Below, piece by piece: positions 1,316 to 46,058 of a stretch of DNA of 64,000 bases (the stretch's first letter is position 1; the number at the start of each line of letters is the position of its first letter). The notes below the pieces were generated by a model. That model searched no databases, was not told the origin of the DNA, and saw only the letters and a list, made by a program, of their open reading frames with translations. The translations under genes and the position numbers were made by a program. Source of the DNA: a virus; the IMG/VR virus record IMGVR_UViG_3300028197_000003, positions 1-64,000 of that record; one strand, given 5' to 3'.

Positions 1316-1486
1316 TTAGGGGTAAAAAATTTCTTGTAGGACGCCATTGGAGGAGAGGACGCGATATTTTTTGCCGGACTGGATAGAACGCCCCTTTGCG
1401 GTACGGCAAGCAGATGTCAAGGAGTGTTGTTCACCGTAGCGATGCCACTTGAAGAATTGGTCCTGGTATTCAATGATAAATTTCAT
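1316..1486 (-). CDS. Tiny conserved-looking basic protein (56 aa)
   Basis: Minus-strand frame with ATG at 1486 and TAA at 1316-1318. It overlaps the 3' end of the SGNH-like gene (1470-2234) by 17 bases, so translation is probably coupled; no separate ribosome-binding site is visible. The product begins MKFIIEYQD, has a central TACRTAK-like basic helix (SACRTAKGRS) and ends with ...GVLQEIFYP. This pattern of an N-terminal strand, aromatic Trp-His, Ala-Arg-Thr-Ala helix and hydrophobic end resembles small conserved proteins I associate with cyanomyovirus genomes. Function unknown. It is the last gene of the minus-strand operon. Confidence 0.6.
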   Translation of the reverse strand: MKFIIEYQDQFFKWHRYGEQHSLTSACRTAKGRSIQSGKKYRVLSSNGVLQEIFYP

Positions 1487-2234
1487 TGTAAAGGAGGTTA
1501 GCGAAGAAGTTATGAGATAGTCGAGTGGGATGAAAGGAGTGTGGATTTATGTGTTTATGTTGTTCTAAGAAGCGGATACGGCGTGAGTCTGTCTTTTGAT
1601 ACTGGGAGACGTGGTAAGTATCATTAGTGGGAGTGTAACCGTGATGGGTAGATAGGATGGAACAGAGGTCCCTGTGAGGGCGATCAGAGAATAGGAGACG
1701 GGGGATATGAGTGGGGTATATGTGATGATTGAAGAGATCTACCCAATAGTTACGAATACCGAGTGCATCAAAGTAAGTATTCCAATGAAGCATTTGATTG
1801 GAAAGTTCTTTGAGGACTACGGAGTGATTGTAATGTAAGCGGAGGTGAGTTTTGGAGTCAAAGTTATTTTTACGTAGTTGGTTATCTGCGGAATAACCGT
1901 GACCCCATACTCTACTTACGTAGGTATTACGGTTATTATACCATATTTCATCACGAGCGGTTGAAGTTATACCCCAGAGAACAATGGAGTCTTTCGAGGG
2001 GGGAGAAGTGTTGAAGAACTCAGTGGCCAAGCGGAATTGTTTTTGGTTACTTGAACCATTTTGTGAGAAATTTATGTTAGTTTTATTGAGTTTCTCTGAG
2101 AGTAGGTGACGGTATGAGTATTTTGTGAAGTCTTCAGAGTGTCTTTGGGCGTTGAATTGTTCTCTAGGTTGTCCTGGGGTGTAGCAGAGACCGTGACCCC
2201 ACATCCAGGAGCAACCGAAGGTGATGAGGTTCAT
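1470..2234 (-). CDS. SGNH/GDSL-hydrolase-like protein (paralogue 1)
   Basis: A 254-residue protein with a GCSW nucleophile elbow at residues 7-10 (ITFGCSWMWG), a second block NGSSN near 60, WGITSTARDE near 87 and a C-terminal HPTRLSH at about 235. These match blocks I, II and V of SGNH hydrolases: Ser nucleophile, Gly/Asn oxyanion residues and a C-terminal His. The usual GxND block III is replaced by WGxTxxxR in this subfamily. Such enzymes remove or transfer acyl groups, often acetyl esters on glycans. No signal peptide is visible, so it is expected to act in the host cytoplasm or on virions. It is closest to the gene at 5218-6003. It is transcribed with four other paralogues. The real substrate is unknown. 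Confidence 0.72.
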   Translation of the reverse strand: MNLITFGCSWMWGHGLCYTPGQPREQFNAQRHSEDFTKYSYRHLLSEKLNKTNINFSQNGSSNQKQFRLATEFFNTSPPSKDSIVLWGITSTARDEIWYNNRNTYVSRVWGHGYSADNQLRKNNFDSKTHLRLHYNHSVVLKELSNQMLHWNTYFDALGIRNYWVDLFNHHIYPTHIPRLLFSDRPHRDLCSILSTHHGYTPTNDTYHVSQYQKTDSRRIRFLEQHKHINPHSFHPTRLSHNFFANLLYNEIYH

Positions 2235-2264
2235 AGGCGGTCGGAACCCTCTCTCAAAGGAAGT

Positions 2265-3110
2265 TTATTTGTCACCTGTAGCATCACGATGTTCTTGGGA
2301 GTAGATGGACTGTCTCATATTATTTTTTGTGAGGTAATAGTATGGAGACTTGAATATATCATGCATTGAGTATTCCATTACCATAGCGATACGTTTATGT
2401 GCTTTAGGAGTAGGGTGAAGTTGATTTTTGAAGGTATGAAGTAGATTAGTTTGTACACAATATTTGACACGTTCTGAGGTTTCTTCATTCATCCAACGGA
2501 TACCATATCCTGGAGTTTCCAGATTGGAGTCAGGTGCATGACATTCATTCCATGTTAGTTCAGTTAGCATGGAATTGATTAGGAGGCGACCACCAGGGTG
2601 GATATGATTATCGATACCATCCCACCAATAGTTAGGAATACCTTCAAGTTTTAGAAGTTTATCAAAGACTGCGATTTGATATTTGAATCGTTCATAACAT
2701 ACCCAGAAGTTATGATGTTTTTTATAGTAATCATCAACATCAATTTTGTGCCAATATTCTTGGTTGAACTTTTGTTCATCAGTCATGCCAGGGAATAAAA
2801 CCATTGAGGCAGCTTCAAAATCATCTTTATTTGAAATATGCTGAATTTCAAAGATAATACCAGCGACTTTGATGCCTCTTTTTTTATACTCAGGTAACTT
2901 ACGAATAATTACTTTATTCAAGTGGTATTGGAGAGTATCGTTAGATGCCCGTTTGAAAGATATATTCTTTAGTCGCCAGTTATATTTGTCTGCTAAGATA
3001 TGTGCCCATGATTTTTTAGGGTCATCTTCTGCAAGAGTCCATGCACCACCAATGACGATTAGGACTGGGCGAAGATCATCAATAGGAGTGCCACCATCAA
3101 AGGTCTCCAA
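2265..3110 (-). CDS. SGNH-like protein lacking the nucleophile serine (paralogue 2)
   Basis: This 281-residue protein aligns by eye with the other SGNH paralogues: hydrophobic strand VLIVIGGAW, block II RASNDTLQYHL, and C-terminal LHPTPKAHKRIA. The nucleophile position is Ala (GGAW in place of GCSW), so it may be catalytically dead or have another role. The only usable start is a TTG at 3110. It has a GAGGG ribosome-binding sequence 8 bases upstream, and an in-frame TGA lies just before it. It overlaps the end of the zinc-ribbon gene by 14 bases. The N-terminus is about 16 residues longer than in its paralogues. The frame is intact, which argues against simple decay. Confidence 0.65.
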   Translation of the reverse strand: METFDGGTPIDDLRPVLIVIGGAWTLAEDDPKKSWAHILADKYNWRLKNISFKRASNDTLQYHLNKVIIRKLPEYKKRGIKVAGIIFEIQHISNKDDFEAASMVLFPGMTDEQKFNQEYWHKIDVDDYYKKHHNFWVCYERFKYQIAVFDKLLKLEGIPNYWWDGIDNHIHPGGRLLINSMLTELTWNECHAPDSNLETPGYGIRWMNEETSERVKYCVQTNLLHTFKNQLHPTPKAHKRIAMVMEYSMHDIFKSPYYYLTKNNMRQSIYSQEHRDATGDK

Positions 3111-3366
3111 AGTTATCCCTCATTTCTTCACGATGGTTCTTGAGGGATGTGAAGGCACCATCAATAAAACCACGACGATATTCCCAGGTATCACCCCCGG
3201 TTTTACCTCTAGAGGCATTGATGCACTTTGCAGCATCAGGATCATCTTCTCTAAGGTTATTGCATACTAAACCAGCAAGATCAAGATCTTTACCAGGTTT
3301 GCCGGTCCCTCCCCAATAGAGGACTCCCTCCATCCAAGTAGCACCACACTTTTCACATTTCTTCAT
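3097..3366 (-). CDS. Zinc-ribbon-type small protein (89 aa)
   Basis: It begins MKKCEKCGATW, a CxxC knuckle, and has two further cysteines (LVCNNL at about 34 and AKCINA at about 47) that could complete a four-Cys zinc site. The C-terminal half is charged. It has its own late-promoter motif (CTAAATA) at 3392-3398 on the minus strand, about 26 bases upstream of the ATG. Its 3' end overlaps the TTG start of the nucleophile-less SGNH gene, so the two are probably coupled. Its role, perhaps nucleic-acid or protein binding, is not determinable. Confidence 0.7.
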   Translation of the reverse strand: MKKCEKCGATWMEGVLYWGGTGKPGKDLDLAGLVCNNLREDDPDAAKCINASRGKTGGDTWEYRRGFIDGAFTSLKNHREEMRDNFGDL

Positions 3367-3391
3367 GGGAACCTCTGTGGATTATAAAAAA

Positions 3392-3398
3392 TATTTAG
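3392..3398 (-). promoter_or_regulatory. Late-promoter-like motif CTAAATA (minus strand)
   Basis: TATTTAG on the plus strand reads CTAAATA on the minus strand, placed 26 bases before the ATG of the zinc-ribbon gene and overlapping the stop codon of the gene at 3395. The spacing matches that seen at virion-gene promoters in the window. Confidence 0.55.
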
Positions 3399-4024
3399 AA
3401 GTTAGTATGTTCTATAATGTAGTCAGCAATGATTTTGTGTTGATCTGCATTTGGATGACCTTGACCAGGGGTCTGGATCATCTTCAGAATATCCTCGTAG
3501 ATATGATGCATTTTCGGGTCATCCATTAGGTTTCGCCAATACCCCATATCTTCTAGAGGATCACAATCATTGAATAGTACAATGTAGGGAACTTCATGTA
3601 CTTTAGCAAATTGTTCAAAAAGAAGTAAGTTTTTGTATAAATTCTCTGCCCCATGTGTCTTATTCCATACCCAACGGTAGTAGGAAGACATTGCTAGGGA
3701 ATGTGGTACTTTCTTCTTATTACCTGAACGGAAGTTGAAATTAGAATTATCTTGTCTAAACCTAAAAGGGCAGAAGAGGTGAGCACCATCTTCTGCATAG
3801 AACTCAATACGAGTGGGTACTGTAAGTTGTAAGACTACTGGTTGAACCCCATTAGTCTTTATATGATGTAGTACCCTATTTACGATATAGTCATTGGATG
3901 CCCCACATTGAGACAAATCAGTTGCTTCACACTTGTAGTGTTTTTCAACATGATGAATGAACCGTTCTGCTAGACGGTCCTTCAGTTCATCACCCCATGT
4001 ATACGAACAACCCGCAAATATCAT
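3395..4024 (-). CDS. SGNH/GDSL-hydrolase-like protein (paralogue 3, short form)
   Basis: At 209 residues this is the shortest paralogue. It starts MIFAGCSYTWGDEL, with the Ser nucleophile at residue 7, continues with CGASNDYIVNRV (block II), VVLQLTVPTR (block III position) and ends with GHPNADQHKIIADYI (block V His). Its ATG overlaps the stop of the upstream DUF3310-like gene as ATGA. The small size leaves little beyond the core flavodoxin-like fold. Predicted activity is acyl-ester hydrolysis or transfer; substrate unknown. Confidence 0.72.
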   Translation of the reverse strand: MIFAGCSYTWGDELKDRLAERFIHHVEKHYKCEATDLSQCGASNDYIVNRVLHHIKTNGVQPVVLQLTVPTRIEFYAEDGAHLFCPFRFRQDNSNFNFRSGNKKKVPHSLAMSSYYRWVWNKTHGAENLYKNLLLFEQFAKVHEVPYIVLFNDCDPLEDMGYWRNLMDDPKMHHIYEDILKMIQTPGQGHPNADQHKIIADYIIEHTNF

Positions 4025-4377
4025 GCCGAAAGATCAATCATTTTCTGTATGTAGGTCTTTGCTTTTTGTAGGTCATCTTGACGAGAGTTGCCAGATTTCC
4101 TACCTGCACGACTAACATACTTTACAACATTACCAGCAAAGAAGTCGAGTTCTTGATCTGCAATGAAATCCCAGACTTCAATTTGTCCAGTATTGTAATA
4201 ATCGGGATGGTAACCGAGTGCATCAGAAACCGAAAACGTAAGGTGATCTTGTCCTGGTCCCCCAATGCCTCCAACTTGGAATGTGAAAGGGACTTGCTGA
4301 GCTGCTTGTACAGCATCGTCAGGAACTTGGATATCTAATGCGTCACCGCCGTCGAATTGAATGGTGTCGTCTGCCAT
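4021..4377 (-). CDS. DUF3310-like protein
   Basis: The C-terminal 70 residues carry the pattern I associate with DUF3310 phage proteins: YYNTGQIEVWDFI, then LDFFAGNVVKYVSRAGRK, then DLQKAKTYIQKMI. The N-terminal 45 residues are acidic and glycine-rich. I chose the ATG at 4377 over the in-frame GTG at 4395; it leaves a 4-base gap to the preceding SGNH gene instead of a 14-base overlap. The 3' end overlaps the next gene as ATGA. DUF3310 proteins are widespread in tailed phages and their function is not settled to my knowledge. Its position inside an SGNH array is unexpected. Confidence 0.75.
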   Translation of the reverse strand: MADDTIQFDGGDALDIQVPDDAVQAAQQVPFTFQVGGIGGPGQDHLTFSVSDALGYHPDYYNTGQIEVWDFIADQELDFFAGNVVKYVSRAGRKSGNSRQDDLQKAKTYIQKMIDLSA

Positions 4378-4381
4378 AGAA

Positions 4382-5221
4382 CTAATGAGCGTCACGCCAA
4401 ATAGTATTGTAGGGTTTAGAATCTTTATTAGATTCCTTATATGAAGTATAGCACTTGGTTAGTATAGGGTCAAGGATCTCTGCAATTTGTTGATGTCCTT
4501 GTATAGTTGGGTGAAATGAATATGGATTGAGAACTCCTTTTTTCTTCAAGAAGTCAACACGATCACAATCTGCTTTCCAATCAGAGAAGTGATACTTATC
4601 ATCCATTGGATCCCATCCATTCTTGTATGCCAACTGACTTAGTAAGTCCTGATTGCAGTCATACGGCAATTCATCAAATGGTTTATATACACCACCAGTA
4701 TAATTATTGACATTCAGTGTGTCAAACCATATTTGAGGAACGTTGAGTAACTCAAAATACTTCTGCCAAAAATGGACTTCGTCTGCTAACGTCCGATTGG
4801 CAACACGTTCATAGAAGTGTTGGCGGAAATACTCCTTTGGTCCACACCAATCAGGTCCATGAATATGTTTACGTTTCTCTTGACCGGGTTGAAAGCATGA
4901 AAATGACTTTCCATGATTGAAAAATACTTCCATCCTGTAGATAGAAGTTACCCCCCAGATGACAATAGTGTCATTTAGATCATTCTGATGTAAATATTTT
5001 CTAAGTCTGCGAAACTGACATCCATTAGATGCTCCTCCAGAAGCAATATTGACGTTTTCTAATCCATGCTTTTTTGATAAGATAGTTCTAAACGCATTTT
5101 CCCAGTTGTCATCATCGTTATAACAGCGGTCTTGATACGTTTGTTTGTCCCAAGGATCTTCAGAATCATACCCGGAACCAACACCAGCAATCCAACTGCA
5201 TCCTAAAGTCAGTAATCTCAT
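4382..5221 (-). CDS. SGNH/GDSL-hydrolase-like protein (paralogue 4)
   Basis: A 279-residue protein beginning MRLLTLGCSWIAGVG with the nucleophile Ser at residue 9. Other blocks are GGASNGCQFRRL, IVIWGVTSIYR and SFHPTIQGHQQIAEIL near residue 240, as in the other paralogues. It follows the 5218 gene with an ATGA overlap, and the gene order suggests tandem duplication. A C-terminal extension (CYTSYKESNKDSKPYNTIW) is not seen in paralogue 5. Likely role: removal or transfer of an ester group on a glycan or related substrate. Specificity unknown. Confidence 0.72.
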   Translation of the reverse strand: MRLLTLGCSWIAGVGSGYDSEDPWDKQTYQDRCYNDDDNWENAFRTILSKKHGLENVNIASGGASNGCQFRRLRKYLHQNDLNDTIVIWGVTSIYRMEVFFNHGKSFSCFQPGQEKRKHIHGPDWCGPKEYFRQHFYERVANRTLADEVHFWQKYFELLNVPQIWFDTLNVNNYTGGVYKPFDELPYDCNQDLLSQLAYKNGWDPMDDKYHFSDWKADCDRVDFLKKKGVLNPYSFHPTIQGHQQIAEILDPILTKCYTSYKESNKDSKPYNTIWRDAH

Positions 5222-6003
5222 CTGAGTCGGGCAATCTCACCATCAATCTTATCTGCTAACCACTTATGGTACTCTCTAGTGGGATGTTGAGAGAAAGGAT
5301 TGACTTCTTTCTGCTGTTCTAGATATTGAATGCGAGTAGAATCTGAAGAAGAGAACTGCGAGACGTGATATCCATCTGCTTTTGGGGAGAATTGTAAGTC
5401 TGCACACTTCAAAGACATCAGATCCCGCCTAGGTTGATCGTCAAAGAGCATCCTATCGATTGGTTTGGGGTATTCATGATGGTTGAAAGTATCAAACCAA
5501 TAATTTTCAATACCTGCTGCTTCAAAAAAGCGGTTCCAGAAGCGGCATTTGTGTGCAAGTAGTTCTACTTTCTCCTTGTGATCATAGTGATGTGCTAAAT
5601 GTGCCTTGCTATCAAACTTAGCACGCGCCATTTGGGTGTCAGCACCCCATCCATTACCAAAAAGAACACTGATATATTTTCCTTTTTCCTTAGAAAACAC
5701 CTCAGTGCGGGTTGTAACAGTCAATCCCCAGAGCACAACTGTGTTTTTGTACTCACTTGGATCTAATTTACCAAAGTATCTCTCAGCAAACCGAAACTGA
5801 CGCTCATTGGAAGACCCCATTTGAGCGAAATTTTCGTTCGTGCACTCCCACTTATCTGCTAGATGCTTACGAAAGGCATATTTGTCTCCGAACTTTGCGT
5901 CATGATTGTCAGAACCTTGTTTATATTCAATCTTAGTCATCCCTGGAGTATAGTTGGTACCCACACCAAACATCCAAGAGCATCCAAAAGTAACAAGATT
6001 CAT
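5218..6003 (-). CDS. SGNH/GDSL-hydrolase-like protein (paralogue 5, first gene of minus operon)
   Basis: A 261-residue protein: MNLVTFGCSWMFGVG, MGSSNERQFRF, VVLWGLTVTTR and SQHPTREYHKWLADKI give the same block order as its relatives. It is clearly the nearest relative of the gene at 1470: both begin MNL(V/I)TFGCSWM and share a TYHVSQ- or YHVSQF-type segment near residue 200. It is the promoter-proximal gene of the minus-strand operon, with an ATAAATA motif at 6046-6052. No signal sequence is visible. Confidence 0.72.
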   Translation of the reverse strand: MNLVTFGCSWMFGVGTNYTPGMTKIEYKQGSDNHDAKFGDKYAFRKHLADKWECTNENFAQMGSSNERQFRFAERYFGKLDPSEYKNTVVLWGLTVTTRTEVFSKEKGKYISVLFGNGWGADTQMARAKFDSKAHLAHHYDHKEKVELLAHKCRFWNRFFEAAGIENYWFDTFNHHEYPKPIDRMLFDDQPRRDLMSLKCADLQFSPKADGYHVSQFSSSDSTRIQYLEQQKEVNPFSQHPTREYHKWLADKIDGEIARLR

Positions 6004-6045
6004 AATAGATCAAATCTCAGAGGTAGCATTGCGGGGATTCTGCCG

Positions 6046-6052
6046 TATTTAT
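6046..6052 (-). promoter_or_regulatory. Late-promoter-like motif ATAAATA (minus strand)
   Basis: TATTTAT on the plus strand reads ATAAATA on the minus strand (GATAAATACGG in context), about 43 bases upstream of the first SGNH gene. It suggests that the minus-strand operon is transcribed with late genes by the phage-modified host polymerase. Confidence 0.55.
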
Positions 6053-6106
6053 CATAACATAGTTTGGCCATCATACTCAAAGTCATGACAGTGACTTGAT
6101 AGCACT

Positions 6107-7078
6107 CTATTTTCCCCATGCTTCAGGTAAAGTTTTGAATACGTACTTCCAATCTTTATAAAATTTACCCATATACATTCCTGCAACGTTGATATCTTCT
6201 GGAGTAAGGTCTTCAACGTCGCTTATCCATTGATCTTTTAGGTATTCGTGGTGTGGTGCCTTACTTCCCATGTCTGGGACATAGACATTTTGATGAAGCT
6301 CTGTAATTGGGTACTCAAAAAACTCAGAAATAGCACCAAGTTGCTCTGTTTCTTGTTCAGGATCCCAAAAATCTTCCATCACCACTGGATAAACGTTATC
6401 TTTACCAAAAGCATCGCAATATTTTAGGTAACCAGCGATATAATCGCAATGATCTGGCACTCTATTCTGTTTTAGGTTGTGAAAAAACAATTTTCGGTGA
6501 TTTTGTCTCTTTGCAAAGGCTGCTGCGGTAAAATCTCCGCACCAAGAATCTACAACATTGACTTTTCGGGTCAATAAACTACCAACTTCCGAAAAATAGC
6601 GCCTAACAGGGTCACGAAACTCCATCAAGATCTTGACTTTGAAGTGCTCCTGCAATTTTGGAGCAATTTCAAACAAAAATGGTCGAGGAAGACTGAAATT
6701 TGTGTTGGAGAAGTCGCAAACTCCCTCATATTCGTCTTTGATGTTTTCCCAATGCCCTAAAAAGTATTCAATGTACGCATCGAGTGACTTTGGATTTGCC
6801 ATAAGCATTTCCAAAGACGTATTTTTGACAAATCGGTTACTTTTTGATAAATATTCGCCATACGGATGATCGTTTGGTCTTTTTTGATAACTAGCACCGT
6901 TCCACATTAGATCAAAGGCACGTTCATGCTCCTCATCTTTCTTACAAAGTGCTTTGAGGTACCAATTTTCTTTTTTATGCCCCATATGAACATATTGGTT
7001 GTCCATCGTCACTGTGTAGTGCATTGGACTTGTTGCTGACCAGCCAACGCCGGGATTTAGAAGCAGTGTTGGTTTCAT
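6107..7078 (-). CDS. Sulfotransferase-like protein (paralogue A)
   Basis: A 323-residue protein beginning MKPTLLLNPGVGWSATSPMHY. The GVGWSATSP segment is placed like the 5'-phosphosulfate-binding loop of PAPS-dependent sulfotransferases, and MEFRDPVRRYFSE near residue 160 resembles the 3'-phosphate-binding (R...S) motif. The C-terminus PEAWGK is shared with the divergent neighbour at 7266. The family would move sulfate from PAPS to a hydroxyl or amine acceptor. No PAPS synthesis gene is visible here, so PAPS would come from the host. The two genes diverge from a 32-bp gap. Acceptor unknown. Confidence 0.7.
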   Translation of the reverse strand: MKPTLLLNPGVGWSATSPMHYTVTMDNQYVHMGHKKENWYLKALCKKDEEHERAFDLMWNGASYQKRPNDHPYGEYLSKSNRFVKNTSLEMLMANPKSLDAYIEYFLGHWENIKDEYEGVCDFSNTNFSLPRPFLFEIAPKLQEHFKVKILMEFRDPVRRYFSEVGSLLTRKVNVVDSWCGDFTAAAFAKRQNHRKLFFHNLKQNRVPDHCDYIAGYLKYCDAFGKDNVYPVVMEDFWDPEQETEQLGAISEFFEYPITELHQNVYVPDMGSKAPHHEYLKDQWISDVEDLTPEDINVAGMYMGKFYKDWKYVFKTLPEAWGK

Positions 7079-7087
7079 GGTAAACTA

Positions 7088-7095
7088 TATAAATT
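7088..7095 (+). promoter_or_regulatory. Possible late promoter TATAAATT
   Basis: It matches 7 of 8 bases of the T4 late consensus TATAAATA and sits in the divergent gap, 16 bases before the ATG at 7111. The ribosome-binding site AGGAGG follows at 7097-7102, which leaves a very short leader. Confidence 0.4.
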
Positions 7096-7110
7096 CAGGA
7101 GGTGGGTCGT

Positions 7111-7269
7111 ATGCCGTATGATGTCTATCTAGACAAGAAAATCATCTTTGAATCTCTATCAAAAGAAAAAGCAGAAGGAATTCGAGATACCATGCAAAAT
7201 ATGATTATGGCAGGAATCAACACTACTTATAAAGTTGAAGATATCCGAATTGAACCTTGTAAAGGATGA
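7111..7269 (+). CDS. Tiny hypothetical protein (52 aa)
   Basis: ATG at 7111 follows a full AGGAGG ribosome-binding site at 7097-7102, one of the best in the window. The 52-residue product (begins MPYDVYLDKKIIF, ends EPCKG) has a beta-strand/helix/strand look and no known motif. Its TGA overlaps the next ATG as ATGA at 7266-7269. It is probably a leader gene of the plus-strand decoration operon, and its strong translation start could feed ribosomes into the downstream sulfotransferase-like gene. Confidence 0.75.
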   Translation: MPYDVYLDKKIIFESLSKEKAEGIRDTMQNMIMAGINTTYKVEDIRIEPCKG

Positions 7270-8156
7270 AACCTACATTATTTTTGAACGTAGGAACTGG
7301 ATGGTCAGGGACTACTCCATTATACTACACTTTGGGTTGGTATAACAACTATTGTCATGCTGGACACCGTAAAGAAAAAGGATATCTGTGGTTGCTTCAG
7401 TTACAGAAAGATAATAACACGTTTGAGCGAGTAAAGTTCTACAAAAAGTTTTTTGGACCATCCAGGCAGTCAATTACGACTCGGAAACCCAAAATCTTCA
7501 CTCATGAATCTAAGTACGTTGCTGGAAAATGGACTGAGGAAGAAATTGAGTATTTTTGGGGTCCCCCGTTTGAATTGAGAAAGTATGTTCAATATTATTT
7601 GAAGCATTGGGATAATATCAAAGATGATTATAAAGCAGTTGCTGATTTTAGCAACCCCAATGGATATTGCGATGCAGAGTACATAAAATATCTTGCATAT
7701 CATTTACAGAGTTATTTTGACGTAAAAATCCACATGATTTTCCGAGATCCCATTCGTAGACTGTGGTCTTGTCGTCAAGCTCAGAAAAGAGACAAACCTG
7801 TTGAGCATTTTCTAAAGTCTGGCATGGATTTTGACTATATCGATTTCTATAACAAATGGGCAGATGCATTTGGCAATGATAATACCCATGTAACAATCAT
7901 GGAAGACTTTTGGGCAGGAGACACTTCTTTGCTGTCAAGTTTTATTGGTATGGATATCAAGGAGACTCATGTCAATGCATATGTCCCAGATCTCGGTCCC
8001 TGTGCTCCACATATCCAATATTTGAACGATCAGTGGGAATCTGACGTAATGCATATGCCAGATCATGTCAAGGATAAAGCAAAGATTATGATGGAACCTT
8101 GCTATTCTCATTGGAAGCAATATTTTGGCAAATTGCCCGAATCTTGGGGAAAGTGA
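7266..8156 (+). CDS. Sulfotransferase-like protein (paralogue B)
   Basis: A 296-residue protein with the loop NVGTGWSGTTPLYY at residues 8-21 (PAPS 5'-phosphosulfate loop position), FRDPIRRLWS at about 159-168 (3'-phosphate motif) and a C-terminal KLPESWGK. It is most similar to the divergent gene at 6107: shared MKPTL start, GHRKE/GHKKE, NAYVPDLG/NVYVPDMG and DQWxSDV. It starts in an ATGA overlap with the tiny gene at 7111. Predicted to sulfate an unknown acceptor. Confidence 0.72.
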   Translation: MKPTLFLNVGTGWSGTTPLYYTLGWYNNYCHAGHRKEKGYLWLLQLQKDNNTFERVKFYKKFFGPSRQSITTRKPKIFTHESKYVAGKWTEEEIEYFWGPPFELRKYVQYYLKHWDNIKDDYKAVADFSNPNGYCDAEYIKYLAYHLQSYFDVKIHMIFRDPIRRLWSCRQAQKRDKPVEHFLKSGMDFDYIDFYNKWADAFGNDNTHVTIMEDFWAGDTSLLSSFIGMDIKETHVNAYVPDLGPCAPHIQYLNDQWESDVMHMPDHVKDKAKIMMEPCYSHWKQYFGKLPESWGK

Positions 8157-8186
8157 TATTATACATAGGAAGCATTTGAGGTTGTT

Positions 8187-8324
8187 ATGCGCCGACTCTG
8201 GTATTGGATTGTAGGTGAATGGAATCTTCGTAAAATCCGCAAAATGGATCCGTTTATCTACGAAGCAGATCAGATGGATGAGATGGATGATCCTTTTGCT
8301 GATGATGGGGACGATAAAGGATGA
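8187..8324 (+). CDS. Tiny acidic-tailed protein (45 aa)
   Basis: ATG at 8187 opens a 45-residue frame whose TGA (8322-8324) overlaps the ATG of the carbamoyltransferase at 8321. The N-terminus is basic and Trp-rich (MRRLWYWIVGEWNLRKIRK); the C-terminus is strongly acidic (ending DDGDDKG). The bipolar layout could be a short amphipathic membrane or partner-binding helix with an acidic tail. I know of similar tiny proteins in cyanophages but no function. The overlap with a clear gene supports it. Confidence 0.65.
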   Translation: MRRLWYWIVGEWNLRKIRKMDPFIYEADQMDEMDDPFADDGDDKG

Positions 8325-9700
8325 TTGGATTTTCTGAGGGGTTTCACGACGCCGGACTGGCGGTTGTTCGTAATAAAAAGATTATCTTTGCTGCACATAG
8401 CGAAAGATACTCTAAGAAAAAGCATGACAAACGATTATGTGATGAACTTGCCTTTTATGGCGAATCACTCAACACAGGTGATGACGTAATCGCTTTTTAT
8501 GAGAAACAGTTCCCAAAACGTGTCAGGCAATTTTTCGCTGGACAAAACCACTGGCGTAAACGAAGACATCTAGCGTTACGACCAAATATCGGTTTTCCTC
8601 ATCATCAATCACATGCTGCAGCAGCATTCCAGACTTCATGCTTTGAAGAAGCAGCATGTGTTGTTGTAGATAGTATTGGTGAATGGGATTGTAGTTCTGT
8701 ATGGACTGCAAAGATGGTTGATGGTAATGCTGTCTATAAAAAACGTTGGTCCCGTAGATATCCAAAGTCTATAGGTCTTTGGTACTCTGCTTTGACTGGA
8801 TGGGCAGGTCTTCGTCCTTTAGACGAGGAATATATCTTTATGGGTATGGCAGCGTTTGGTAAACCCCATTATGTTGAAGAGGTAAGAAAACTCTTGTCTC
8901 AAAACAACCATCGTGGTTGCCATTTAGATATTGAGAGTAAGGAAGACGTTGCTGCTAGTGCACAGGTCGTTCTAGAGGAAGAGTTAGATAAGATTTTTGA
9001 TATTGCTCTTAGATACAGCGATAATGTCTGTTATGGGGGTGGTGTTGCATTGAATTGTGTTGCTAATACCAAACTACGTAAAAGGTGCAACTTATGGATC
9101 ATGCCCAACCCAGGTGACGCTGGTGGGGCACTTGGTGCTGCTCTATTGGCATCAGGTAAGAAAGTAGAGTTCACTCCTTACACTGGGTATAAGATCGACC
9201 GTAAAGTTGATCCTGAAGCAGTTGTAGATGTTCTTTTGAAGGATGGCATCTGTGGTATAGCAAATGGTAAGGCAGAGTATGGTCCTCGTGCTTTAGGTAA
9301 CCGTTCTTTGATTGCGGACCCCCGATCATTTGCAAATAAGGATCGAGTCAACGAAATCAAGAAGAGACAGAAGTTTAGACCATTTGCACCCGCAATTCTG
9401 GAGGAGCATTGTCAAGATTACTTTGATATGCCAGAGCACTCTCGATACATGTCTTATGTCTATCAATGTAAGCGTCCAGACGAGATTCCTGCCTGCGTGC
9501 ACGTCGATAACAGTGCAAGAGTACAAACGGTGCCCGAGACTAGTGAAAGCGTCTTCAGAGCGATTCTAGAGGCATGGTACAAGCGTACAGGTTGCCCTGT
9601 ACTTCTAAATACATCATTGAACATTCGTGGCATGCCAATGGTCAATGAATGGTCTGATGCACTTGATTTCTCTAACAAGTATAACGTTACTGTATTATGA
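8321..9700 (+). CDS. Carbamoyltransferase, NodU/TobZ/CmcH type
   Basis: A 459-residue protein with recognisable carbamoyltransferase signatures: MIGFSEGFHDAGLAVV at the N-terminus, HHQSH (94-98, the metal-binding histidines of the Kae1-like domain), a GGVALNCVAN motif at about 240, EYGPRALGNRSL at about 320, RQKFRPFAPA, and NTSLNIRGMPMV in the C-terminal YrdC-like part. The family makes carbamoyl-adenylate from carbamoyl phosphate and ATP and carbamoylates hydroxyl groups of sugars or antibiotics. It is shorter than the usual 540-570 residues. It is coupled by ATGA overlaps to the tiny gene upstream and the SGNH gene downstream. Sugar or surface-glycan carbamoylation is inferred. Confidence 0.88.
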   Translation: MIGFSEGFHDAGLAVVRNKKIIFAAHSERYSKKKHDKRLCDELAFYGESLNTGDDVIAFYEKQFPKRVRQFFAGQNHWRKRRHLALRPNIGFPHHQSHAAAAFQTSCFEEAACVVVDSIGEWDCSSVWTAKMVDGNAVYKKRWSRRYPKSIGLWYSALTGWAGLRPLDEEYIFMGMAAFGKPHYVEEVRKLLSQNNHRGCHLDIESKEDVAASAQVVLEEELDKIFDIALRYSDNVCYGGGVALNCVANTKLRKRCNLWIMPNPGDAGGALGAALLASGKKVEFTPYTGYKIDRKVDPEAVVDVLLKDGICGIANGKAEYGPRALGNRSLIADPRSFANKDRVNEIKKRQKFRPFAPAILEEHCQDYFDMPEHSRYMSYVYQCKRPDEIPACVHVDNSARVQTVPETSESVFRAILEAWYKRTGCPVLLNTSLNIRGMPMVNEWSDALDFSNKYNVTVL

Positions 9701-10539
9701 AAATACTATTTTCCGGCGATTCCTTCTGCGAAGGCACTGAACTAGACGGTCGAGAACATAGTATGGAACAAAGGGATACATTACGATATTCAAACGTTGT
9801 AAAAGAATATTTGAACGATCTTTTTGGCATTCAAGTCACATTTGACAATATCGGATATTCTGGTTACTCCAATGATGAGATTACTCGCGATACAGTTGAG
9901 TATTGTGAGAAAACCGAAGTAGATGTTGCTGTAGTTCAGTTCTCACACCCTCAGAGGTGGGCATACTACAGTGAGGTGAAAGAACGCTGGTTTAGTATGG
10001 ATCAGTATGAACATTTTTATGGTTGCCACCCAGAACACAAAGTAATTGAAATTTGTGAGTGGTGGGACACTAATGTCAAGTCTAGAACTCAATATATTGA
10101 CAATTTTTTCAAAAACGTATTTTTACTTGAACAATACTTCAAAGCAAAAAACATTCCTTATGTTTTTCTTCAATTAGAGGAATGGACTAATAATGAAATT
10201 GCAAGTTGCGATACTAAGTGGAAAGAGTTGGTAGACACCAAGCGTGTCAAAGGTGTGACACCATCACAAGAAGAATTTGGTAATAGGGAGTATTTTGTCG
10301 GAGAAACAGATGCTATTTGTCCTACATGGTGGATGAAGGACGAAGAACTAATGAGGGAGTACAGAACTCTTGATCAGAGAGATGAAAAAACAGAATTTGC
10401 CGTTGGTAATGATGAAGACACTCATCGGTGGTTAGGTGGATGGCATCCAGGTAAAAATGGTCATATTGCCATTGCAAAGTGGATTATTCAGGAAATGACT
10501 GATAATGAAAAACTCCACCATCTGTTTCCTGGAATATGA
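9697..10539 (+). CDS. SGNH/GDSL-hydrolase-like protein (paralogue 6)
   Basis: A 280-residue protein with a more classical elbow, MKILFSGDSFCEG (Ser at residue 9), GYSGYSNDEI as block II, VVQFSHPQRW at the block III position and GWHPGKNGHIAIAKWI near the end. It is translationally coupled at both ends: ATGA with the carbamoyltransferase and with the radical SAM gene. Its GDSF rather than GCSW suggests a divergent branch of the minus-strand family or an independent acquisition. It may act on the same glycan as the carbamoyltransferase. Confidence 0.75.
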   Translation: MKILFSGDSFCEGTELDGREHSMEQRDTLRYSNVVKEYLNDLFGIQVTFDNIGYSGYSNDEITRDTVEYCEKTEVDVAVVQFSHPQRWAYYSEVKERWFSMDQYEHFYGCHPEHKVIEICEWWDTNVKSRTQYIDNFFKNVFLLEQYFKAKNIPYVFLQLEEWTNNEIASCDTKWKELVDTKRVKGVTPSQEEFGNREYFVGETDAICPTWWMKDEELMREYRTLDQRDEKTEFAVGNDEDTHRWLGGWHPGKNGHIAIAKWIIQEMTDNEKLHHLFPGI

Positions 10540-11789
10540 ATAGAAAGGAGGTAATTGATAATCAAAAAAACAATAGTCTTTGTGCATATCCATTTTTCTC
10601 TGTTAGAAATGGACAATCACATGGATATGCTCCATGTTGCTGGGCACACCGCCAACAACTAGTTGGTCCTGCTACTGACACTGTTTTTGAATATTTTGAT
10701 GGTCCAGAGGCAGTTGAGTTACGCCGTGGAATGTTGAATGGCGAAATAACCAATCAGTGTAAAGGAATTTGTCATTTGTGCCATGAGCGAGAAAAAACGA
10801 GTGGTACGTCTGCTCGTTTGATGATGAAAATCGATGAAAACATGCTTGCTCTTTATAATGATGATGGAACCTATAATCCTGATCACAATCCAGATATTCG
10901 TGAAGTTCTAAATCTAGAACTGAATTTTTATGGTAGTTACTGTAATCTGGAATGTTATGGGTGTCATCCTGCAGATTCAACAACTAGAACTGCTAGATTA
11001 GAAAAAATCTCAGACCTACGAGTTTCTGAGGGAAGAGACGACTGGTTTGCCAAAAATGTTGATGATGTCTACTGGTTACCTACAGATCTCAGAAAAGTTG
11101 ACCCAGATCAATTTCGTAGACTTGTAGAAGACATTATTGATAATGCTGACCGCATTGGTGCCATGGGATTCTGTGGTGGAGAACCAATGGCGATGAAGGC
11201 ACATTTTCAAGTTCTAGATGCTTTGATTCTTGCAGGAAAAGCATCACACATGAAATTGAACTATGTCTCAAATATGACTATGTGGGACATGAAAGTAATG
11301 GAAAAATACCTGAAAGAGTTTAGATACATCCATGTTCAATGGAGTTGTGATGGATTACGTGAAAGAAACCATTATTTGAGATATCCAACAGATTGGGATA
11401 AAACATGGGCAAATGTTCAAGCACTGCGAAAATATTGCAAAGAATCAGGAAAAGGTTCTATGCAGACAACATATACACCTTCTCTTCTAAGTGTGTACAA
11501 AATCAAAGAAGTATTTGAGTTTTTTGAAGAGCAGAATCTAAAATCACGTCCATTTGAAATCTATAACCGATTAGAGAACCCACATTTTCTAAGAGTCAAT
11601 AATCTGCCAGAACCACTCAAAGAGCAGATATTAGATGAAGTAAAAAGTGTTAGTGAGTCAGTTGCTTTAGATATGATGAGACCATGCGAACCTGGGTCTT
11701 GGGAGATTGCAAAAGAGTATTTTGATGATCTGGATAAAACCCGAGGAACCAATTGGAGACTGACTTTTCCCGAACTTGCGGGGTACTAA
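10536..11789 (+). CDS. Radical SAM protein with twitch-type extra Cys clusters
   Basis: A 417-residue protein. C136-NLE-C140-YG-C143 is the CX3CX2C cluster that binds the 4Fe-4S/SAM centre, and GFCGGEPMA (about 211-219) is the SAM-contacting GGEP motif. Additional cysteines are at 16, 34, 35, 75, 79 and 82 (YAPCCW; CKGICHLC), placed N-terminally as in twitch-like radical SAM proteins. These enzymes start chemistry with a 5'-deoxyadenosyl radical; the substrate (peptide, sugar or nucleotide) cannot be told. It overlaps the SGNH gene by ATGA and ends the coupled block. A late-promoter motif overlaps its stop codon. Confidence 0.85.
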   Translation: MNRKEVIDNQKNNSLCAYPFFSVRNGQSHGYAPCCWAHRQQLVGPATDTVFEYFDGPEAVELRRGMLNGEITNQCKGICHLCHEREKTSGTSARLMMKIDENMLALYNDDGTYNPDHNPDIREVLNLELNFYGSYCNLECYGCHPADSTTRTARLEKISDLRVSEGRDDWFAKNVDDVYWLPTDLRKVDPDQFRRLVEDIIDNADRIGAMGFCGGEPMAMKAHFQVLDALILAGKASHMKLNYVSNMTMWDMKVMEKYLKEFRYIHVQWSCDGLRERNHYLRYPTDWDKTWANVQALRKYCKESGKGSMQTTYTPSLLSVYKIKEVFEFFEEQNLKSRPFEIYNRLENPHFLRVNNLPEPLKEQILDEVKSVSESVALDMMRPCEPGSWEIAKEYFDDLDKTRGTNWRLTFPELAGY

Positions 11790-11792
11790 ATA
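11786..11792 (+). promoter_or_regulatory. Late-promoter-like motif CTAAATA
   Basis: The motif overlaps the stop codon of the radical SAM gene (TACTAAATAATATGG) and lies 54 bases before the glycosyltransferase ATG, with a hairpin in the leader between. Confidence 0.55.
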
Positions 11793-11796
11793 ATAT

Positions 11797-11822
11797 GGTA
11801 TCATGCATTTAGGCGTGATGCC
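11797..11822 (+). other. Leader stem-loop before the glycosyltransferase gene
   Basis: GGTATCATGC and GCGTGATGCC can pair over 10 bp, with two G-U pairs in RNA and a 6-base ATTTAG loop. No T-run follows, so it is not an intrinsic terminator. Its place just after a late promoter suggests an mRNA 5' stabilising hairpin or a weak operator. Confidence 0.5.
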
Positions 11823-11845
11823 TTATCAAAAATTGACCTACATGT

Positions 11846-12610
11846 ATGGCTAAAGGTTTCAAGGTGGTAACGACTCCGCCCGAAGGCGAACAAACTACAA
11901 AGTCGGACGAGTTCAGTGTTGAAGCCGCAAGAGAGATGGTAAAGGGTAAGACCTTTGTCTTCTGTCTCCCTGGTCGCGGCGTATCATATATTTTCCTGAA
12001 AAACTTTGTGCAACTCTGTTTTGAGATTGTGCAGCAGGGGGGTGCTATCCAGATCTCTCAAGACTACTCTTCAATGGTCAATTTTGCCCGTTGTAAGTGT
12101 CTAGGAGCAAATGTCCTCCGTGGTCCTGATCAAGAACCTTGGGATGGCAAACTCCAGTATGACTATCAACTGTGGATCGACAGCGACATCGTTTTTGGTC
12201 TTGAACAGTTCTATCGCATTCTCTGGATGGATAAAGAACTTGCTGGTGGTTGGTATGTGACTGAGGATGGTAACACCACTTCTGTTGCACACTGGTTAGA
12301 AGAGGACGACTTCAAGAATAATGGTGGTGTAATGAACCACGAGATGCTTGATGGTATTCAAAAGCGTCGCAAACCTTTTACTGTTGACTACACCGGTTTC
12401 GGTTGGTTACTAATCAAGAAGGGTGTGTTTGAACACAAGATGATGACATACCCTTGGTTTGCTCCTCAGATGCAAGTTTTTGAATCTGGAGAAGTCCAAG
12501 ACATGTGTGGTGAAGACGTATCTTTCTGCCTCGATGCTAAAAAAGCAGGGTTTGAAATTTGGTGTGATCCTAAGTGTCGTGTCGGTCATGAAAAAACTAG
12601 AATCATTTGA
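11846..12610 (+). CDS. GT-A fold glycosyltransferase-like protein
   Basis: A 254-residue protein with D112-S-D114 (LWIDSDIVFG), the DXD-type metal and nucleotide-sugar site. An acceptor-side segment DYTGFGWLLIKKGVFE follows at about 181-196, then GEDVSFC (222-228) and a closing DPKCRVGHEK. This order is typical of GT2-like GT-A glycosyltransferases. There is no membrane segment. The gene has its own late promoter and leader hairpin. Coming straight after carbamoyltransferase, SGNH and radical SAM genes, it completes a set consistent with building or editing a glycan. Donor and acceptor are unknown. Confidence 0.72.
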   Translation: MAKGFKVVTTPPEGEQTTKSDEFSVEAAREMVKGKTFVFCLPGRGVSYIFLKNFVQLCFEIVQQGGAIQISQDYSSMVNFARCKCLGANVLRGPDQEPWDGKLQYDYQLWIDSDIVFGLEQFYRILWMDKELAGGWYVTEDGNTTSVAHWLEEDDFKNNGGVMNHEMLDGIQKRRKPFTVDYTGFGWLLIKKGVFEHKMMTYPWFAPQMQVFESGEVQDMCGEDVSFCLDAKKAGFEIWCDPKCRVGHEKTRII

Positions 12611-12643
12611 TTTTATAGATATATCAAGTGATCTCACTCTGAT

Positions 12644-12808
12644 ATGGACAGATACGATATTTTCGTTGATGGAACTAAAATCCACGACGCTATAACCGAA
12701 GACGAAATGGAAGAATTTACACAGGATCTCGCTGATGAGTTTTATAAAACAGGTACCCCTCATCCAGGCAGTGTAGACGTAGTATACATTGGTACAGACC
12801 AAGAATAA
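12644..12808 (+). CDS. Tiny acidic hypothetical protein (54 aa)
   Basis: ATG 12644 to TAA 12806-12808 encodes a 54-residue acidic protein (begins MDRYDIFVDG, ends YIGTDQE) with a strand/helix/strand appearance. No ribosome-binding site stands out. An intrinsic terminator follows 4 bases after the stop, which supports a real transcript end and a real gene. Function unknown. Confidence 0.65.
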   Translation: MDRYDIFVDGTKIHDAITEDEMEEFTQDLADEFYKTGTPHPGSVDVVYIGTDQE

Positions 12809-12812
12809 ATGA

Positions 12813-12838
12813 AAGGGGTTGAGAGACCCCTTTTTTTT
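12813..12838 (+). terminator. Intrinsic terminator
   Basis: AAGGGGT-TGAGAG-ACCCCTT forms a 7-bp stem followed by eight T. It closes the plus-strand decoration operon immediately before the late promoter of gene 25. Confidence 0.9.
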
Positions 12839-12843
12839 GTACT

Positions 12844-12854
12844 CTAAATAAATA
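12844..12854 (+). promoter_or_regulatory. Late promoter of the baseplate operon
   Basis: CTAAATAAATA (two overlapping copies of the motif) lies between a terminator and gene 25, 26 bases before the GTG start. This is the clearest late promoter in the window. Confidence 0.75.
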
Positions 12855-41487: not shown

Positions 41488-42162
41488 ATGCTTTCTGGAA
41501 CCGATTTCGTAAAGAAAATCAAGGAAGGTAATAGGGAGCTGTTTGAGGCTTCCCGTAGTAACGTCCGTCGTTTCTTCGCTTCTGCCCCTAGCGAGGAGTA
41601 CCTCGTCGAGCACTTCCGTGGCCGCATGGTCAACGAAGCACAAAACATGTATGCGATTGCTGGTCAAGTAGCATCTGCCGACCCTAGCACCGACGTTCGC
41701 GACCTGGAGCTTCTTAGCAAGCAGGCATTGGACGAAGCAAAGCACTTCCGCATGGTCAAGGAAGTCATCGAGCACATCACTGGCGAAGAACTAGACGTTG
41801 CTGCTGCTTTCGCTGCTGAAGCAGGTAAGCCTCAAGCAAAGGGTGCTTCCCTGCTTGAGAAGTACGAAGCTGCTCAAGATCCTGCTGCCCTCGCTGCCTA
41901 TCAGCTCGTTGCTGAAGGTCGTGCACAAGCAGTCTGGTCTGAAATGGCCGAGTGTGTTGAAGATTCGTTTATCTCCACCCGCTACGCCTCCATTGCTAAG
42001 GATGAAGGTTTCCACAGCAACCTCGGCGGACGCTCACTGAGCCGTCTGGTTGAAGGTAGTGTGGAACTTCAAGATCGCGTTCTTGCTCTTGTCGAGCGTA
42101 TGCGTTCTGATCTTCTGGAGATCTCCCGCCAGAACACGGCTACACCTCTTGCCGTTGTTTGA
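41488..42162 (+). CDS. Diiron carboxylate protein of the ferritin/RNR-like type
   Basis: A 224-residue all-helical protein with two complete metal-ligand sets. Set one is E50 followed 32 residues later by D82-E83-x-x-H86. Set two is E143 followed 29 residues later by D172-E173-x-x-H176. This is the E-X(28-37)-DEXXH pattern of RNR-like diiron oxygenases and ferritins. Such proteins activate O2 or store or detoxify iron. ATG 41488 is preferred over 41455 because a ribosome-binding site and a late promoter precede it. Alanine-rich sequence and a more GC-rich codon choice than neighbours suggest strong late expression. It overlaps the convergent P-loop gene by 23 bases. Substrate unknown. Confidence 0.75.
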   Translation: MLSGTDFVKKIKEGNRELFEASRSNVRRFFASAPSEEYLVEHFRGRMVNEAQNMYAIAGQVASADPSTDVRDLELLSKQALDEAKHFRMVKEVIEHITGEELDVAAAFAAEAGKPQAKGASLLEKYEAAQDPAALAAYQLVAEGRAQAVWSEMAECVEDSFISTRYASIAKDEGFHSNLGGRSLSRLVEGSVELQDRVLALVERMRSDLLEISRQNTATPLAVV

Positions 42163-42775
42163 AGGTCTGACGACCTTCTCTAATAGTCTCGTCTAACCAA
42201 TGGTCTTTGACGGGACTTACATATTTTCCGTTGGCATCGCCGGTTATAAACTGGTCGATGCCATTGGTCGTTACAGGGAACTTTAGAATCTCCCCACAGT
42301 ATTTGATATAGTCTTCCTTCCACAAGAAAAAAGATTCGTGAGATAGGAAATGTGTTTCAATATATGGATCCTCTAAGAGGGATTTATAGTAACCTTTGGC
42401 AATCGGTAGGGTTACTTCTCCACCAACTCTTTCTTGTTGAAGTGCATTTATATTTTGATCTCTTGTAATAATTGCCACTACAGGTGTGTAACCAAGATGC
42501 ATTGCTTGATGACAAACTGCTGAAATCTTAGGTACCTGTCTGACACCATCATAGAAGAAAGGAACACTTACATTTGCTAGAAAAAAATCTCCCTCAGGAA
42601 ACTCTAACAACTCAGGATATACCCAATACTTGGCAAATGGTTCCTCATCAGATGGAACCCAGTAATTATCTTTGAGAGAATCCCACCCTACAACTTCTGG
42701 GTGCAAACTAAATATTCTTGCAAATAGGTGATTGCCTGATCCTTGTGGTCCGGTTGTGATAAGGAGTCTTTTCAT
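42140..42775 (-). CDS. P-loop protein, sulfotransferase-like (paralogue D1)
   Basis: A 211-residue protein beginning MKRLLITTGPQGSGNHLFARIFSLHPEVVGW, a P-loop (GPQGSGNH) that is more kinase- or sulfotransferase-like than ATPase-like. Near-identical architecture is found at 47190-47870 (GPQGSGNHLW, FSLHDDVYGWKSLLNNYW), so the two are paralogues. VAIITRDQNINALQQERV near residue 108 resembles the second motif of its twin (KIVVIGRDQNILRNQQQR). Its ATG overlaps the ATG of the divergent gene at 42774 within TCATGA. Its stop lies within the end of the diiron gene. It could be a sulfotransferase or a nucleotide-dependent transferase. Confidence 0.62.
   Translation of the reverse strand: MKRLLITTGPQGSGNHLFARIFSLHPEVVGWDSLKDNYWVPSDEEPFAKYWVYPELLEFPEGDFFLANVSVPFFYDGVRQVPKISAVCHQAMHLGYTPVVAIITRDQNINALQQERVGGEVTLPIAKGYYKSLLEDPYIETHFLSHESFFLWKEDYIKYCGEILKFPVTTNGIDQFITGDANGKYVSPVKDHWLDETIREGRQTFKQRQEV
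42161..42178. other. Small stem-loop at the convergent gene junction
   Basis: GAAGGTC-TGAC-GACCTTC is a perfect 7-bp stem that begins within the stop codon of the diiron gene. No T-run flanks it on either strand, so it may stabilise mRNA 3' ends rather than terminate. Confidence 0.4.
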
Positions 42776-43913: not shown

Positions 43914-43938
43914 AAAAAGGCAGGCGTTATGCCTGCCT
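43912..43938 (-). terminator. Intrinsic terminator of the TRAP-binding-protein gene
   Basis: Read on the minus strand: GGCAGGC-ATAAC-GCCTGCC followed by seven T. It sits between the convergent genes at 42774 and 43958, and only the minus-strand orientation has the T-run. Confidence 0.88.
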
Positions 43939-43957
43939 ATAAAATCAAAACAGAAGT

Positions 43958-44914: not shown

Positions 44915-44941
44915 GCCTTATTGAGTTATGGTTCTATACTA

Positions 44942-44948
44942 TATTTAT
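44942..44948 (-). promoter_or_regulatory. Late-promoter-like motif ATAAATA (minus strand)
   Basis: CAATAAATATAGT on the minus strand lies 28 bases upstream of the ATG at 44914, which is the same spacing as for gene 8 and the zinc-ribbon gene. Confidence 0.6.
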
Positions 44949-44991
44949 TGTAATGTAACTGTTCCTAAATTATTATGATGCTTGTGAAAGG

Positions 44992-46038: not shown

Positions 46039-46058
46039 TAAAGTGATTGTATAAAAAA

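Follow-up and report, generated by a model that had tools for sequence, protein, structure and literature searches.

The DNA considered here is the first 64 kb (the window) of a 192,351-bp IMG/VR record, IMGVR_UViG_3300028197_000003. T4-like structural genes are present and psbA/psbD-like genes (read from the sequences) occur in the remaining record, and the record was therefore assigned to a cyanobacterial T4-like phage. Positions 1316 to 12808 hold two operons encoding sulfotransferase-like proteins (ST), SGNH-type proteins, a carbamoyltransferase (CT), a radical S-adenosylmethionine protein (rSAM) and a glycosyltransferase (GT), for which a preliminary description, made from the sequence without database searches, had proposed a role in glycan decoration. 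We find that this module is an island at a fixed site, with variable content, and that the cyanobacterial T4-like phages carrying it form a single uncultured clade. Every open reading frame (ORF) named in that description was recovered at the same position, and two micro-ORFs that it had overlooked were added. Gene calls are longest-ORF calls throughout. The features of the island, with one related block elsewhere in the window, are as follows.

1470–2234, minus strand: SGNH-type protein, subgroup a; GCSW/GSSN/HPT motifs; paralogue of 5218–6003 (6e-77)
2265–3110, minus strand: SGNH-type pseudoenzyme, subgroup a; GGAW, nucleophile Ser replaced by Ala
3097–3366, minus strand: phrog_484 protein; PHROG match 6.7e-30
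3395–4024, minus strand: SGNH-type protein, subgroup b; subgroup profile match
4021–4395, minus strand: DUF3310 domain protein; PF11753, 2.7e-13
4382–5221, minus strand: SGNH-type protein, subgroup a; weak PF00657 match (0.0016) and family alignment
5218–6003, minus strand: SGNH-type protein, subgroup a; modelled with AlphaFold2, mean predicted local distance difference test score (pLDDT) 89.2
6107–7078, minus strand: sulfotransferase-like protein; FRDPVRRYFS 3'-phosphate-binding motif
7111–7269, plus strand: micro-ORF 1, 52 aa; ATGA overlap with the ST gene 7266–8156
7266–8156, plus strand: sulfotransferase-like protein; IFRDPIRRLWS motif
8187–8324, plus strand: micro-ORF 2, 45 aa; ATGA overlap with the CT gene; R..DP[YF].YE motif
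8321–9700, plus strand: putative NodU/TobZ-type O-carbamoyltransferase; PF16861, PF02543
9697–10539, plus strand: SGNH-type protein, subgroup b; subgroup profile match
10536–11789, plus strand: twitch-type radical SAM protein; CX3CX2C at residues 136–143
11846–12610, plus strand: predicted GT-A type glycosyltransferase, phrog_1574 / T4-GC 102; Foldseek on the model
42140–47870, no strand assigned: second ST block, between fibre-like genes and gp13

The two operons had been described as facing each other; they in fact diverge, with 32 bp (7079–7110) between their start codons. The consecutive 4-bp overlaps reported for the plus strand are present, as ATGA junctions at 7266, 8321, 9697 and 10536 in the order micro1-ST-micro2-CT-SGNH-rSAM, and the GT gene starts 56 bp after the rSAM gene. 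Overlaps of 4 bp are also found on the minus strand, at 5218/5221 and 4021/4024. The characterisation of both operons as sets of hydroxyl-modifying genes stood with regard to the enzyme classes, except that the minus operon is not purely of this kind: it includes the phrog_484 protein and the DUF3310 protein, which are probably passengers. A DNA-level search for near matches with the whole region returned a 65-bp match in one phage only.

The CT (8321–9700) matched both expected Pfam families well above their cut-offs (PF16861, 1e-52, 178 bits against 27; PF02543, 1e-36, 127 bits against 24) as well as the structures of NovN, GdmN and TobZ. It retains HHQSH, the HxxxH metal site, and GPRALGNRS, as do all other module CTs except one; the residues of both motifs have well-known roles in carbamoyltransferases. 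It is thus well supported from its sequence as a putative O-carbamoyltransferase, with transfer to a hydroxyl group predicted. A second carbamoyltransferase locus, broken into three ORFs, was observed at G000 140703–143078 (L013), followed by another radical SAM gene (143023–143856); a block matching this locus is also present in AG-345-D19 and on L119.

Pfam, PHROG and NCBIfam by themselves missed the STs and most of the SGNH proteins, and family profiles were built for this reason. No Pfam family scored above its cut-off for the STs at 6107–7078 and 7266–8156; Ntox5 was considered for the former and rejected at 17.5 bits (cut-off 25). The ST family, which has six members in the genome (6107, 7266, 42732, 44992, 46047 and 74271), matched by profile the sulfotransferase 3rnl in the PDB (2.1e-9) and heparan-sulfate 3-O-sulfotransferases (0.001–0.004). 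Both signatures expected for binding of 3'-phosphoadenosine-5'-phosphosulfate (PAPS) are present in the alignment: a 5'-phosphosulfate loop, G-x-GWSATTPL, and a 3' motif, RDPVRRxxS, of the form RxPxxRxxS. In the latter R160 and R165 are invariant and S168 nearly so, and a motif of this form was found in 252 of the 303 family members. Taken from these alignments, the two module STs are well supported as putative PAPS-type sulfotransferases. A limited pattern search found no relatives in bacterial and archaeal genomes.

Three further members of the ST family (42732–43913, 44992–46038 and 46047–47189) lie in the second block, the arrangement of which is the same on L121, L123 and L124. The block is flanked by a second P-loop family (TGPQGSGNH; 42140–42775 and 47190–47870) that has no Pfam match and is possibly a further type of sulfotransferase or kinase. 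A gene for a DctP TRAP-type solute-binding protein (43958–44914; PF03480, 2.5e-32) sits amid these STs near the tail fibre, and a gene of the same type was found on L135.

Two SGNH subgroups were recognised: subgroup a (1470, 2265, 4382 and 5218) and subgroup b (3395 and 9697, with two more members outside the window). Foldseek matched the model of 5218–6003 to SGNH esterases including EstL5 and TesA, with a best E-value of 3.7e-4, 10–12% identity and TM-scores of about 0.4–0.57, while the subgroup b profile matched the GDSL protein 6hfz (3e-4). In both subgroups the Ser of block I is retained, as is a C-terminal His-Pro. The nucleophile Ser is present in five of the six window proteins and missing in 2265–3110, whose relatives carry Ala or Arg at that position; of the earlier claim of six SGNH-type proteins, the fold thus stands and an intact nucleophile in all six does not. 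The block III Asn (GxND) is not conserved, the corresponding positions reading WGITS..R in subgroup a and Q.T...R in subgroup b, and the His of block V (DxxH) is kept with no Asp three residues upstream in subgroup a, 3395 and 9697. We therefore regard the six as predicted SGNH-fold proteins of uncertain hydrolase activity, since they do not conserve two residues of canonical SGNH hydrolases, the catalytic Asp and the Asn of the oxyanion hole. A Glyco_hydro_57 assignment for 3395–4024 was rejected (12.9 bits, below the cut-off of 21.2). Subgroup a is wider than the island, as it also occurs on marine contigs without other module genes (L257–L297), often after runs of genes of unknown function.

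The rSAM (10536–11789) matched NF033640 over its full length with 239.8 bits, against a curated cut-off of 170, and its CX3CX2C cysteines are C136, C140 and C143. Matches to viperin-like defence proteins were much weaker (PADLOC pVip, 3e-4; NCBIfam viperin, 18 bits against a cut-off of 180), and such a role was rejected in favour of the full-length NF033640 match. The GT (phrog_1574) is core-like in cyanophages. Its model, of moderate confidence (pLDDT 72), was matched by Foldseek to GT-A enzymes with a probability of 1.00 (Mnn9, 4.4e-8), and the matches were largely protein O-glycosyltransferases (LH3, COLGALT1, ppGalNAcT and mimivirus R699). A DSD motif lies at residues 112–114, with both Asp invariant, and a GT-A glycosyltransferase is well supported as the prediction from this model. 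Overall, the folds or profiles bear out the sulfotransferase, carbamoyltransferase, CX3CX2C radical SAM and DXD glycosyltransferase calls of the preliminary description, and the SGNH call at the level of fold.

Both micro-ORFs recur among relatives and are coding sequences under purifying selection, with a median ratio of nonsynonymous to synonymous substitution rates (dN/dS) of 0.21 for micro-ORF 1 (166 pairs) and 0.19 for micro-ORF 2 (283 pairs). The D, P and Y of the micro-ORF 2 motif are conserved in 55 of 55 sequences. No match to micro-ORF 2 was found among isolates, where BLAST masking may hide matches. Some relatives (L156 and L158) carry micro-ORF 2 twice.

IMG/VR, whose contigs are fragments, was scanned with CT, rSAM, ST and SGNH queries, each scan giving at most 80 loci. 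The genes do co-occur, and the outcome that the preliminary description had named as refuting, genes that never occur together, did not arise: the order [ST/SGNH]n-CT-(SGNHb)-(rSAM)-GT1574-gp25-gp6-gp7 recurs on dozens of contigs, which differ in how many ST and SGNH genes they carry. Among 48 distinct module CTs with flanks, a GT was found nearby in 48, an SGNH gene in 48, an ST in 46 and an rSAM in 13, counts that overstate co-occurrence because the contigs were partly picked by ST, CT and rSAM seeds. A survey seeded with the GT only, which is free of this bias, was made on loci with at least 1.5 kb upstream. Module genes were found upstream in 16 of 17 loci whose GT was at least 80% identical and in 1 of 34 with a less similar GT (Fisher p 4e-11, for contigs that are related by descent and not independent). 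In the cultured phages S-SSM7, S-T4, P-SSM2 and Sf-CH5 the GT and gp25 are present and the module is absent, its site holding small genes of unknown function or 2-oxoglutarate (2OG) oxygenases.

When the ST 44992–46038, the SGNH protein 5218–6003 and both micro-ORFs were searched against 50,697 phage records, the only matches were in contigs of AG-345-D19. AG-345 is a sort gate for extracellular particles (PMC6122165), and this genome is therefore that of a single virus particle. One of its contigs carries an ST, an amidinotransferase, two SGNHb, a CT and an rSAM, another carries gp7-gp6-gp25-GT, and the genome is collinear with this record elsewhere. In one lineage (L017, L027 and L030) an amidinotransferase gene lies in or beside the island. 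At G000 132563–135370 (L013), two genes assigned to the arginine:glycine / inosamine-phosphate amidinotransferase family stand in tandem. On L148 the GT is inverted relative to gp25 and the CT, and the CT and rSAM lie on the opposite side, so this site has been rearranged.

With regard to timing, ATAAATA occurs 28–35 bp upstream of several structural genes, and the following elements were found in and directly after the module.

6046–6052, minus strand: ATAAATA (T4-late-type), 43 bp before 5218–6003, a spacing somewhat longer than 28–35 bp
12811–12834, plus strand: terminator-like hairpin with a T run, separating the GT gene from gp25 and ending the module
12848–12854, plus strand: ATAAATA motif, 32 bp before gp25

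The motif at 6046–6052 is the sole ATAAATA near a gene start inside the module. Exact TATAAATA occurs in the 64-kb window at the level of chance (3 found, 2.9 expected), with none in 1–13 kb, and a comparison of relatives revealed no conserved exact late motif between the two divergent ST starts. The claim of several T4-late promoters was accordingly too strong, and the proposal that the set is made together with the virion is left with weak support from one exact late-type motif.

We propose, tentatively and with somewhat less than even confidence, that this fast-changing, late-gene-associated island modifies a glycan by O-carbamoylation, O-sulfation and acyl editing, and that this glycan most likely sits on the tail or fibre proteins of the phage. 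The predicted chemistries of the CT, the STs and the SGNH proteins are all directed at hydroxyl groups, and the genes stand beside a GT; a substituted glycan is for this reason the simplest common product. We infer the substrates, the order of steps, the target and the timing as follows. The island would have been inserted immediately upstream of the baseplate wedge operon. The GT-A enzyme would glycosylate a phage protein or lengthen a phage-made glycan, which could be supplied by a large apparent sugar/glycan gene cluster at G000 107745–128153 (epimerase-like and glycosyltransferase-like genes and a 2OG oxygenase at 122326, as read from start sequences). The CT would convert carbamoyl phosphate to carbamoyl-adenylate and transfer the carbamoyl group to a sugar hydroxyl, while the STs would use PAPS to sulfate other hydroxyls. 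Acyl groups may be attached or trimmed by the SGNH proteins, with the inactive 2265–3110 perhaps serving as a partner or scaffold, and in lineages with an rSAM this protein may alter either the sugar ring or a side chain. The target would most likely be tail, baseplate or fibre, giving virions that bear variable, negatively charged, acylated glycans. The phage tail is the likeliest target because of the baseplate-adjacent site, the ST block among fibre genes, the structural matches of the GT, which are largely protein O-glycosyltransferases, and the arrangement in P-SSM2 (L138, 8312–11138), where the GT gene is flanked by two 2OG-Fe(II) oxygenase genes directly before gp25. The latter suggests that virion proteins are hydroxylated and glycosylated in cultured cyanophages too. 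The late-type ATAAATA before the minus operon and gp25 also speaks for this reading. Several observations weigh against it: the rSAM is missing from most relatives, the canonical SGNH residues named above are not conserved, the module has a single exact late motif, and the GT-CT unit terminates before gp25. There is also no sign of any module product on the virion, and the usual interpretation of large cyanophage glycan clusters is that they modify the host surface (PMC3037559, PMC7824862).

The same enzymes could instead carbamoylate, sulfate and acyl-edit the lipopolysaccharide (LPS) or exopolysaccharide on the surface of the infected cyanobacterium. Competing phages would then no longer find their receptors (superinfection exclusion), or released virions would be kept off debris. 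This is possible, if rather unlikely in our view. The enzyme classes would be the same, such a role has been proposed for cyanophage LPS clusters and the CT-bearing cluster of S-SSM6a (PMC7824862), and the quick changes in gene content at this one site would also suit an arms race over surface antigens. Set against this, the module's neighbours are structural genes and not early ones, the second ST block is located amid fibre genes, no membrane anchor is evident in the module enzymes on reading their sequences, and a lytic phage would gain little from coating its host late in infection. The original idea of glycan or hydroxyl decoration is thus upheld by enzyme classes and synteny, with the virion a more probable target than the host surface. 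That unrelated cargo genes were assembled at a permissive insertion site seems distinctly improbable. The DUF3310 and phrog_484 genes within the minus operon and the widely variable gene content would agree with it, but five families and two micro-ORF families stay together, ATGA-coupled, across many divergent contigs, and the GT-only survey gives a strong association.

Production of a secondary metabolite by the CT, ST, rSAM and, in some relatives, the amidinotransferase is given an equally low probability. Some metabolite pathways of cyanobacteria and actinobacteria combine CT, amidinotransferase and ST, an amidinotransferase adjoins the island in the lineage mentioned above, and a metabolite has been proposed for the S-SSM6a cluster (PMC7824862). 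Yet Pfam reveals no polyketide synthase, non-ribosomal peptide synthetase or halogenase among the module proteins, an amidinotransferase adjoins the module in two of the 48 distinct cases, and many paralogous STs and SGNH proteins per genome better suit a polymer or many acceptor sites. We give slightly less credence still to a peptide or protein modification pathway in which the micro-ORF 2 product would be a mini-substrate joined to the baseplate, or would guide enzymes to it; its R..DP[YF].YE motif is followed by acidic residues and its gene is coupled to the CT gene and adjacent to an ST gene, and the conserved tyrosine, in the acidic setting favoured by tyrosine sulfotransferases, would then be sulfated or otherwise modified. 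Least probable of all, and very improbable, is DNA hypermodification, in which the CT would carbamoylate a hydroxymethyl pyrimidine in the manner of the 5-hydroxymethylcytosine (5hmC) carbamoyltransferase. Phage-type enzymes that belong to these Pfam families do have this activity (eLife 70021, PMC8670742), and the published enzyme was found together with a partner of the dCMP hydroxymethylase family (PMC8670742). The 192-kb record, by comparison, has no thymidylate synthase / dCMP hydroxymethylase (PF00303) match, the CT reads GPRALGNRS as in antibiotic carbamoyltransferases where the 5hmC enzyme reads GPRALCNTT, and its neighbours are ST, SGNH and GT genes rather than genes of nucleotide metabolism.

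Glycan gene clusters are common in marine phages, and the set described here offers a concrete case for the question of tail self-decoration, and the analysis names candidate sulfate-, carbamoyl- and acyl-adding enzymes together with two new small proteins.

Cyanophage carbamoyltransferases and glycan clusters are already known (PMC3037559, PMC7824862). A fixed-site, clade-restricted island of ST, SGNH, CT, rSAM and two microproteins was not found in the open-access literature searched, in agreement with the earlier statement that no system with this exact set had been described, and none of the cultured phages searched combined enzymes that add sulfate, carbamoyl and acyl groups. The 5hmC carbamoyltransferase (PMC8670742) shares Pfam families and an environmental phage origin with the CT and differs in having a GPRALC-type site and a partner enzyme, both of which the CT lacks. 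TobZ, NovN, GdmN and NodU have both Pfam domains and the core motifs in common with the CT, which is shorter (459 aa against 576 aa for the TobZ chain) and is encoded in a phage operon. In mycobacteriophages, phage glycosyltransferases are thought to modify the phage's own structural proteins; this is another phage group with other genes, from which, to our knowledge, the CT/ST/SGNH set is not known. Glycosylation of the capsid has been suggested for Maravista (PMC11256854).

The CT cluster of S-SSM6a and S-SSM7 described by Iyer et al. was proposed to decorate a polysaccharide or make a metabolite (PMC7824862), and it likewise groups NodU-type CTs with sugar- or amino-acid-modifying enzymes. 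It includes a halogenase, 2OG oxygenases and phosphatases, whereas the module proteins include no halogenase. In S-SSM7 the CT lies at 104–107 kb and GT-gp25 at 54–56 kb without a module upstream, in contrast to the CT at the gp25 site here. The S-SSM7-type CT is about 28% identical to the CT of the module, and the queried ST family was not found in isolates. The LPS/glycan clusters of P-SSM2, S-SM2 and S-SSM7, in which sugar synthesis and transfer genes lie near hli/phoH (PMC3037559), are comparable in that sugar and glycosyltransferase genes are phage-encoded with an uncertain target. Those clusters make and transfer sugars, whereas the island described here is composed of predicted substituent-adding enzymes at the gp25 site.

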